NCBI RefSeq assembly: GCF_002160325.1
Contig: NZ_NFKJ01000003.1
Span: 62,001-126,000 of the forward strand
Source of the DNA: Lachnoclostridium sp. An181
Lineage (GTDB): Bacteria; Bacillota; Clostridia; Lachnospirales; Lachnospiraceae
Direction of reading: 5' to 3'
Length of the DNA: 64,000 nt
Positions 25,709 to 28,656 of the stretch are shown one piece after another (position 1 is the first letter of the stretch; the number at the start of each line of letters is the position of its first letter). A program made the position numbers and the translations under genes. The notes beneath the pieces were generated by a model that was not told where the DNA came from, searched no databases, and saw nothing but the letters and a program-made list of their open reading frames with translations.

Positions 25709-25746
25709 ATAAAAATACCGTCAGCCGATCAACCAGCTGACGGTAT
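25709..25746 (-). terminator. Terminator after copA
   Basis: 11-bp perfect stem ATACCGTCAGC / GCTGACGGTAT with a 10-nt loop followed by TTTTATAA on the minus strand. Confidence 0.92.
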
Positions 25747-25762: not shown

Positions 25763-25972
25763 TTATTCGATTCCAATCACCTTGTAATCCTGATCTTCCA
25801 CAGCCTTTTTCAGCACATCGTCCGCAATCTGTGCGTTCAATGTCACAACAGCTCTTCCCTCCTCATGGCTTACATCTGCCGCATCCACCTGAGGCAGCGC
25901 CTCCAGACACTTTTTCACCCTTGCTTCGCAGTGCCCGCACATCATTCCTTCAATCTTCATAGTTCTTGTCAT
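25763..25972 (-). CDS. Possible internal start within copA giving a 69-residue CopZ-like chaperone
   Basis: Within the continuous copA frame, AAGGAGG stands 8 nt before an internal ATG (25972; another ATG at 25978). Translation from there gives a complete HMA domain beginning [20 protein letters not shown] with the MxCxxC copper site, 69 residues, the usual size of free CopZ chaperones. Whether the ribosome initiates here is unproven; the sequence could also be a relic of a gene fusion. Confidence 0.5.
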
Positions 25973-28288
25973 TGTCATGTCCTCCTTATTTTGTTTTGTT
26001 TTTCTTTTTTTGTCTTTCCCCGCATCATACATTTTAAACCAATTCAGCCTGAGCGCATTGGTCACAACACAGAAACTGGAAAGACTCATGGCAGCAGCAC
26101 CGAACATGGGATTTAACTGCCACCCCACAAGCGGAATAAAAACTCCTGCTGCCAATGGGATTCCGATGATATTATAGATAAATGCCCAGAAAAGATTCTC
26201 ATGGATATTTTTCAGAGTCGCTCTGCTTAGGCGGATTGCAGCCGGAACATCCGAAAGCCTGCTTTTCATCAGCACTACATCCGCTGCGTCAATAGCTATG
26301 TCCGTGCCTGCACCGATGGCGATTCCAATATCCGCCCTTGTAAGCGCCGGCGCGTCATTAATGCCATCCCCCACCATGGCCACTTTTCCTTTTCGTTTCA
26401 GAGAACGGATAACGCTCTCCTTTCCGTCCGGAAGGACGCCTGCGATCACTTCGTCCACACCTGCCTGCTTTCCGATCGCTCTTGCCGTTCGCTCATTATC
26501 TCCGGTGAGCATGACAACCGAAATTCCCATGTTCTGCAACTCTTTGACGGCACGCGGGCTGTCCTCCTTCATCACGTCAGCCACAGCGATGATACCTGCA
26601 AACGTTTCATCCTTTCCAAAGAACAGCGGAGTCTTTCCTTCTTCTGAAAGTCTGATGGCTTTTTCTGCCATCTCTTTTGGCACCAGAACCTTTTCCCTGA
26701 TGAACTTTAAATTTCCTCCCACAAGATAACTGCCTTTCCATTCACCGGACAGACCGTTTCCGGGTACCGCCGTAAAGTCGCGGACCTCCCCAGGCTCTTT
26801 GATCTCCCGCTCTTTTGCAAGCGCCAAAATGGCGTGTGCAAGGGGATGTTCACTTTTCTTTTCCAGAGCATACGCCAAAGCAAGAAACTCTTCCTCTTGC
26901 ATGCCCTCTGCCGGAAGGATATCTGTCACCTTTGGCTCACCCTGGGTGATCGTGCCTGTCTTGTCGAGGGCAACAATCTGCATTTTCCCGGCCTCCTCTA
27001 AAGAAACCGCTGTCTTAAACATAATGCCATTCTTTGCACCCATTCCATTTCCCACCATAATGGCAACCGGAGTGGCAAGCCCCAACGCACAAGGACAGCT
27101 GATGACCAGTACAGAAATTCCCCTTGCCAGGGCAAATCCAACGCTTTCCCCTGCAAAAAGCCATACCAGGATCGTCAAAACCGCAATTCCTATGACTACC
27201 GGAACAAACACGCCCGACACTTTATCCGCCACCTTGGCGATCGGCGCTTTTGTGGCAGCCGCATCGCTCACCATCTGGATGATCTGGGAAAGGGTCGTGT
27301 CCTCGCCCACTCTGGATGCCTCGCATGTAAGGAACCCTTCCTGGTTTAAAGTGGCAGCGGACACCTCATCCCCCTTCTTTTTGTCCACCGGAATGCTCTC
27401 TCCGGTGAGGGCAGATTCATTCACTGCGCTTGTTCCTTCAAGGACAATTCCATCCACCGGGATATTTTCTCCTGGTCTTACTACAAAAATATCACCTTTT
27501 TTTACCTGGTCAATGGAAACTTGCATCTCCACCCCGTCTTTTAACACAACCGCTGTCTTTGGGGCCAGTTTCATCAGACCTTTGAGAGCATCTGTTGTCT
27601 TCCCTTTTGATCGGGCTTCCAGCATTTTACCGACTGTGATCAAAGTCAGAATCATAGCCGCAGACTCAAAATAAAATTCATGCATATACTTCATGACTCC
27701 AGTCATATCCATACGCATTTGCGCGTCTGTCATGGCAAACAGTGCATAGGTACTGTACACAAATGCAGCGGTTGAACCAAGCGCCACAAGCGTATCCATG
27801 TTTGGAGCTCTGTGCCAAAGACTTTTAAAGCCGCTGATAAAAAATTTCTGATTGACTACCATGACCGCGATGGTAAACAAAAGCTGGATCAATCCCATGG
27901 CTACATGGTTTCCTTCCAGAACATTTGGAAGGGGCCAGTTCCACATCATATGTCCCATAGAGACGTACATCAAAGGAAACAACAGACATAAAGATACGAT
28001 CAGCCTTCTTTTCAGCACTGGCGTTTCCTTGTCTTTGAGCATTTCTTCCCCATCCGAAATTCCCTGTACATCCTTTTTTTCTTTGCCGGCAGATTTTGGC
28101 GCAGCACCGTATCCTGCTTCTTCCACTGCCTTAACGATATCCGATTCTTTTGCCTCCCCTTCCACGCCCATGGAGTTTGTCAAAAGGCTGACCGAACAGG
28201 AAGTAACGCCCGGCACTTTTAAGACAGCTTTTTCCACCCTTGCGCTGCACGCAGCACAACTCATTCCTGTCACTGAATATTGTTTCAT
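25763..28288 (-). CDS. copA: Copper-exporting P1B-type ATPase with N- and C-terminal HMA domains
   Basis: 841 residues. N-terminal HMA domain with [12 protein letters not shown] (about 8-19), membrane segments from about 95, TGES actuator loop (about 290), the Cu+ site [11 protein letters not shown] (about 390), phosphorylation motif DKTGT (about 435), HP motif in SEHPLA, and [10 protein letters not shown]. After the last membrane segment a charged linker joins a second HMA domain with GMMCGHC (about 777). It pumps Cu+ out of the cytoplasm. SD AAGGAGG; starts 11 nt after csoR. The C-terminal HMA and an internal SD are unusual; see the separate entry. Confidence 0.95.
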
Positions 28289-28299
28289 CTTCTGCCTCC

Positions 28300-28602
28300 T
28301 TACCTCATCAATTTCTGCAGCGTCACGACAAGCTCATCGATCGTTTCCTCTTTTCCCTCCCGGATATCCCGGGCCACACAGGTACGGATATGATTTCCAA
28401 GAAGGACTTTATTGAAACTGTTGAGCGCTGCATTGACTGCAGATACCTGAATCAGAATATCCGGACAATAGGCATCGTTCTCCACCATCTTTTTGATTCC
28501 CCTTACCTGTCCTTCAATTCTGCTAAGTCGATTGATCAAATCTTTGTATTCTTTTTCTGAACGCTCTTTTGTCTTATGACAGCATTCTGTGTAATTATCC
28601 AT
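28300..28602 (-). CDS. csoR: Copper-sensing repressor CsoR
   Basis: 100 residues of the CsoR/RcnR all-helical family. [20 protein letters not shown] is the DNA-binding face. Cu+ ligands: Cys in AYCPDIL, then His and Cys in NHIRTCV, the C-H-C set of CsoR proteins. It represses its own operon until Cu+ binds. ATG 28602 follows GAGG; a GTG at 28611 is less likely. A matching operator sits in the promoter. Confidence 0.93.
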
Positions 28603-28627
28603 TTGCAACACCTCTCTTTACAGCGCC

Positions 28628-28656
28628 ATTATATACCCCATATGGGTATTTTTCAA
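28628..28656 (-). promoter_or_regulatory. csoR-copA promoter
   Basis: TTGAAA (28651-28656), 17-nt spacer, TATAAT (28628-28633) on the minus strand. Near-consensus sigma-A promoter. Confidence 0.85.
28633..28649 (-). promoter_or_regulatory. CsoR operator
   Basis: ATACCC-N5-GGGTAT palindrome, matching the known TACCC…GGGTA CsoR boxes, and lying almost exactly between the -35 and -10. Repressor bound here would block polymerase. Confidence 0.85.

Follow-up and report, generated by a model that had tools for sequence, protein, structure and literature searches.

The copper pump gene copA of Lachnoclostridium sp. An181 very probably encodes two proteins. It lies in a window of 64,000 nucleotides, by which we mean the whole stretch of DNA analysed, and its reading frame contains a second ribosome-binding site and start codon at the beginning of the C-terminal HMA domain. 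Comparison with related genes makes it very likely that this internal start is a selected translation start, by which one gene would give two proteins through internal initiation. The features concerned are as follows.

25763–28288, minus strand: copA, encoding a P1B-type Cu(I)-exporting ATPase of 841 aa with an HMA domain at the N- and at the C-terminus (TIGR01511; Pfam HMA twice).
25763–25972, minus strand: nested in-frame copZ, encoding a 69-aa HMA domain, the proposed free copper chaperone (Pfam, AlphaFold2, Foldseek).
25970–25972, minus strand: internal start codon ATG, with the first Cys of CxxC 11 codons later (sequence, homologues).
25976–25978, minus strand: second in-frame ATG, 2 nt 3' of the Shine-Dalgarno (SD) sequence (sequence).
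25981–25987, minus strand: internal SD AAGGAGG, 8 nt 5' of the internal ATG (sequence, conservation, codon test).
25973–26041, minus strand: hypervariable basic linker from the last membrane segment to the internal start, which also encodes the SD (sequence, 229 homologues).

Direct reading of the minus strand gives AAGGAGG at 25981–25987, an 8-nt spacer, ACATGACA, and the internal ATG at 25970–25972, in frame with the 841-residue copA (28288..25763). Translation from this ATG ends at the copA stop and yields 69 residues with an MxCxxC domain. The original prediction, that AAGGAGG stands 8 nt before an in-frame ATG at the start of the C-terminal HMA domain and that the product has 69 residues with MxCxxC, proved exact on both points. 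The in-frame ATG at 25976–25978 would yield 71 residues and is probably too close to the SD to be the actual start, since only 2 nt separate the two.

The full-length protein scores 604.9 bits against TIGR01511, a model of copper-translocating P-type ATPases with a cut-off of 397. Within the nested domain, Pfam HMA spans residues 4–60 (51.5 bits, cut-off 24.8) and includes the motif MMCGHC, an MxCxxC sequence. The AlphaFold2 model of the 69 residues has a mean pLDDT of 95.3 and the predicted order strand-helix-strand-strand-helix-strand with strand 1 from residue 2, which is the ferredoxin-like beta-alpha-beta-beta-alpha-beta fold of about 70 residues. CopZ (6ff2) is both the closest PDB fold in Foldseek (TM 0.90) and the closest solved structure by sequence (E 7.2e-10). 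By the Pfam match, the predicted fold and the similarity to CopZ, the 69 residues form one whole HMA domain. We call it CopZ-like, outside the NCBIfam models, because it scores below the CopZ equivalog and exception cut-offs (55.2 vs 85 for NF047957 and 48.7 vs 91 for NF033795). Among loci L009–L088 of our set, the product from the ATG 11 codons before CxxC is 69 aa long in 74 of 79.

The surroundings of copA contain four further features.

28300–28611, minus strand: csoR-like metal-sensing repressor gene, 103 aa, directly 5' of copA (PF02583, 110.7 bits, cut-off 22.8).
28295–28301, minus strand: AAGGAGG ahead of the annotated copA start ATG at 28286–28288, its core identical to the internal site (sequence).
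28628–28656, minus strand: promoter-like TTGAAA-N17-TATAAT over the palindrome TACCCATATGGGGTA at 28634–28648 (scan, 11/12 consensus bases).
25717–25744, minus strand: inverted repeat followed by a T-rich run, 3' of the copA stop (read directly from the sequence; absent from the output of the pattern scan).

We take the palindrome to be a probable CsoR operator, and the hairpin at 25717–25744 is a probable shared terminator. The csoR-like gene overlaps the ribosome-binding site of copA at the shared TAAGGAGG junction. The csoR-copA mRNA would carry two ribosome-binding sites of similar strength. Ribosomes that load at the first would make the 841-residue CopA pump with its tethered C-terminal HMA domain, and those that load at the internal AAGGAGG-N8-ATG would make the last 69 residues only, a free CopZ-like HMA protein that could pick up Cu(I) and hand it to the pump. 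Our guess for the division of labour is that the tethered domain supplies the pump directly, and that buffering and transport of copper fall to the free copy.

A free CopZ might also arise through proteolysis of CopA or from a separate short transcript, and the internal start would then add little. The title of a 2017 study of E. coli copA by Drees et al. names differential transcript formation besides frameshifting, which speaks for such a route. Against the short transcript, the promoter scan gave no match in the roughly 600 nt that precede the internal start; on the same strand the closest match has 9/12 consensus bases and lies at 26618–26589, and the matches found were near the shuffle mean (6 vs 3.8). 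A short transcript would, moreover, still require the internal ribosome-binding site. We consider this explanation very unlikely.

The strength of the internal SD is a weak argument when this one site is taken by itself. Duplex energies were computed against CACCUCCUUU, the anti-SD that we assume, independently of the 16S of this genome, for the host ribosome, and the internal copA SD has an energy of -11.1. Three of the 479 internal in-frame ATGs in the 64 non-overlapping ORFs of at least 100 codons in the window reach this value or lower, and they include both the internal copA site and another ATG of the same gene; a site of this strength is unremarkable on the scale of a genome. We tested conservation because the single site hardly exceeds chance, and it is conservation, not SD strength alone, that lifts the internal site above chance.

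Two other strong sites were seen in the window. The further in-frame ATG of copA, at 26983 on the minus strand, follows an SD-like GAGGAGG (energy -11.8) and lies 406 codons from the end of the gene. Its strength is not conserved, for only 9 of 5,955 ATGs in the bodies of homologous copA genes reach -11.1. The other, at 1838 on the minus strand, follows CGGAGGTGATG with an energy of -13.8 in a 451-residue ORF (1635–2990), 67 codons from its end at a membrane-like stretch. This strong SD may be due to chance; the ORF presumably encodes something resembling a spore germination protein.

Relatives were compared at the levels of family, order and class, as the search at genus level returned only the genome of the window itself. 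A first set comprised the window and the best 80 of 584 matching loci. At family level 282 of 299 genomes matched and 193 loci were read, the order search contributed 29 loci and 40 regions, and the class set consisted of the best-scoring 24 loci from 125 matching genomes labelled 'same class', that is, outside the order of the window. This sampling favours genes that resemble the window copA, and the most distant copA genes are less represented. We classed 343 loci as 302 fused, 31 unfused and 10 without a recognisable anchor, which were left out, and removal of 12 fused duplicates left 290 unique fused copA genes.

In the first set, an ATG stands at the same place before the HMA motif in 80 of 81 genes while the linker varies freely. 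An ATG preceded by an SD (energy <= -5) is kept in 276 of the 290 unique fused genes and is missing from 14; with a stricter SD limit of -6, 257 ATG sites and one TTG site (L178) are counted. In 234 of the 276 kept genes, the distance from the ATG to CxxC is exactly 11 codons. The linker that leads from the last membrane segment to this start ranges from 11 to 135 codons (median 31; 229 genes measured). Of the 24 best-scoring loci that form the class set, 23 are fused; each of these has a start with an SD energy of -6.5 or lower, 22 with ATG and one, L366, with GTG. Minor departures were also seen. The SD-ATG pair sits further upstream in L253 and L105, and in L231 and L232, which have two tandem C-terminal HMA domains, the internal ATG is found in the second and none in the first.

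Selection at the nucleotide level is visible in codon choice. Lys and Glu codons in the fused genes end in G exactly over the SD and in A beside it: AAG:AAA is 108:12 at codon -5 vs 11:65 at codon -6 (Fisher 1e-27), and GAG:GAA is 180:14 at codon -4 vs 15:101 at codon -3 (Fisher 7e-49). Whole-linker averages are 307:776 for AAG:AAA and 128:307 for GAG:GAA, and the gene body has 54% AAG and 49% GAG. When the genes were thinned to 89 clusters at 70% core identity, 70 of them kept, the contrasts were 34:8 vs 3:7 for Lys (p = 0.003) and 50:3 vs 5:26 for Glu (p = 1.4e-13). The original prediction had staked itself on an SD preserved at synonymous positions, and the Lys and Glu counts bear it out.

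SD energy averages -9.69 at the internal start (n = 229), -9.56 at copA's own start (n = 213) and -3.25 at the 5,767 remaining in-frame ATGs of these copA genes. Along the gene, as far as the next domain, a drop in SD energy is seen at codons -2 to +2 of the internal start and nowhere else. The folding energy of 40-nt mRNA segments is weakest at the internal start (-0.75), compared with -5.55 at position -60 nt and -7.61 at position +60 nt.

The unfused relatives indicate a possible origin for the nested gene. As the original prediction had anticipated, some relatives have a separate copZ: downstream of 12 of the 31 unfused copA genes, an HMA ORF lies no more than 640 nt away, while none is within reach in the other 19. 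L308 has, after the copA stop, first AGGAGG and then the copZ ATG. Most likely, the fused gene would have arisen through loss of the copA stop, which placed a neighbouring downstream copZ in the frame of copA, with selection on the copZ start signal persisting after the fusion. Two fused genes from another family of the order, L304 and L305, are placed among unfused relatives with a separate copZ (tree node support 0.71 to 0.86). This position suggests a second fusion, possibly a younger one. The SD of both genes is weaker, GAGGG.

Such a history also allows that copA and copZ fused and that the old SD and ATG are functionless leftovers. Unfused relatives in which copZ, with its own SD, directly follows copA provide an obvious historical source for the internal signal. 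A relic should decay, however, and the signal is kept in those 276 of 290 genes across hundreds of genera although the linker that carries it cannot be aligned; codon choice, too, flips exactly at the SD bases, also in the thinned set. We regard a mere relic as very improbable, with selection on a start in use as the preferred reading.

The 14 genes without the internal start serve as natural controls. They form 13 separate clades in a tree of 320 cores, which was midpoint-rooted and in which some nodes beside lost genes are poorly supported (0.41 to 0.64). The sister of one of them, L290, is an unfused gene and not a kept one. An HMA ORF lies within 640 nt 3' of the copA stop in 7 of the 14 start-lost genes vs 4 of the 263 kept genes with enough flank (Fisher p 4.5e-8, a value that takes no account of relatedness). 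Here the TTG gene L178 was scored as lost; scored as kept, the counts become 6/13 vs 5/264. The other 7 of the 14 have no HMA ORF nearby. As the start is absent from 14 of 290 genes, it is dispensable in some lineages.

A type of small HMA protein with a CGMC motif and mostly a PYEKKG-like tail is encoded directly after copA in L110, L150, L152, L160, L178 and L285, and in L171 the CGMC-type domain is itself fused as the C-terminal domain of copA. It seems to be an alternative chaperone module. In L152, which has kept the start beside an HMA neighbour, the SD is weak (-5.8).

The lost starts also bear on the idea that the SD-like motif acts in elongation and not in initiation, through a pause that aids the last membrane segment or the folding of the HMA domain. 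It has been suggested that SD-like stretches within coding regions slow the ribosome. Pausing does not call for an ATG at constant spacing, whereas in 162 of 229 genes GGAG ends exactly 9 nt before an ATG. The last 30 codons contain an SD of -8 or lower in just 3 of the 14 start-less genes vs 90% of the kept ones. GTG replaces ATG in one relative (L366), so it is a start codon, not methionine, that is kept. Pausing is thus, in our judgement, extremely unlikely to explain the site.

Constraint on the protein is the last explanation to be weighed, in which a charged linker and a methionine needed in CopA happen to spell an SD and an ATG. Gene by gene, a median of 30% of synonymous recodings match the SD strength, so that the SD of any one gene is unexceptional given its protein, because Lys-Glu-Glu easily spells an SD. 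The per-gene test is weak, and the test over all genes is decisive. In 200 synonymous recodings, the replicate means ranged from -7.23 to -6.12, with none below -7.23, vs the real mean of -9.69. Although Lys-Glu-Glu is the commonest tripeptide over the SD (57 of 276) and an SD of -8 or lower survives in roughly 40% of synonymous recodings, there is hardly any probability left for protein constraint alone, as 72 different tripeptides are encoded over the SD in the 276 genes, GGAG occurs in all three codon phases (204:28:2), 90% of real sites reach -8 vs 31–48% per recoded replicate, and codon bias is seen at single positions. Internal initiation, as originally predicted for a free CopZ, is supported as far as sequence can show; its use in the cell, the amount of product, copper binding and copper transfer are what we infer from it.

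Of the 63 genomes searched with the HMA family, three (G140, G108 and G258) give only two matches. Both matches are located in copA in G140 and G258, so no other HMA protein is visible to the search there. We do not claim that the genome of the window is without another HMA protein, as it contains two further small HMA ORFs. One is a stand-alone ORF of 75 aa that adjoins a ZntA-like ATPase (G000:C1:193605-195718; L002, L091); the other has 123 aa and an N-terminal membrane-like segment. The match to the ZntA-like ATPase contains a TAA; the gene may be interrupted, or its HMA part may have been split off.

The two elements of the proposed mechanism, an in-frame internal start and the production of a pump and a chaperone from one copA, are known separately. 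In passages of PMC5009743 and PMC9548414 that draw on Meydan 2017 and Drees 2017, frameshifting in E. coli copA is described as giving a short putative chaperone of 70 aa, and a passage of PMC5009743 attributes a chaperone-like function to the 5' segment of copA. As described there, E. coli resembles our case in that a single copA probably supplies, besides the pump, a free HMA chaperone some 70 residues long, and differs in that CopA(Z) is an N-terminal domain released by programmed -1 frameshifting. In the window copA, which resembles a fusion of copA with copZ, the free domain is C-terminal and in frame and has its own internal SD and start codon; neither the N-terminal free domain nor the change of frame of the E. 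coli type applies to this gene. The parallel with CopA(Z) that was drawn in the original prediction therefore holds for the outcome and not for the route. Both routes could coexist in the window copA.

Another comparable case is Cas11, for which a passage of PMC11899642 describes translation from an internal start in the cas8 or cas10 gene. There too, a second start in the same frame yields the C-terminal portion of a long gene as an additional, separate product, but the proteins and their function are unrelated, and the free domain of copA is a metallochaperone that would probably serve its host protein. The part of PMC11005335 on in-frame internal-start proteoform pairs in bacteria lists CheA-S, infB, clpB, mrcB and arcB, all with a second in-frame start within the gene. 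The copA site shares the marks of such pairs, a start codon and an SD at normal spacing, conserved beyond the need of the protein. That part does not name copA, and unlike the pairs given there, the short form of copA corresponds to a protein encoded separately in relatives.

Further counterparts are the copA-copZ operons (L300, L308, L318, L333, L334 and others), which give the same two products from one mRNA, with the copZ start signal at the same position relative to CxxC. They differ in that a stop codon parts the genes and CopA has no tethered C-terminal HMA domain. Separate tandem copZ genes are described for Haemophilus in a passage of PMC10187127. Copper-specific and general searches of the open-licence literature found no report of an internal start in copA, and neither the combination of the two known elements nor its origin by operon fusion was found described there.

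If the internal start is used as proposed, it would be a second, independent translational route to a pump and a chaperone from one copA, after the E. coli frameshift, and one distributed across numerous genera of gut Clostridia. Annotation pipelines record a single protein where two are probable, and surveys of copZ would wrongly score such genomes as lacking it. The family itself offers natural controls, namely genes with a separate copZ, with a nested start, or with the start lost and an HMA gene adjacent, which make the question of tethered plus free chaperones directly testable. More broadly, we think it likely that copA is an obligate double gene in a large part of the Clostridia. In this wider proposal, copA and copZ would have fused more than once and kept the internal start, which in some species would be the sole source of a free chaperone; competition between the two ribosome-binding sites would determine the ratio of the two products, which copper might shift, and loss of the start would often be accompanied by a separate chaperone gene.
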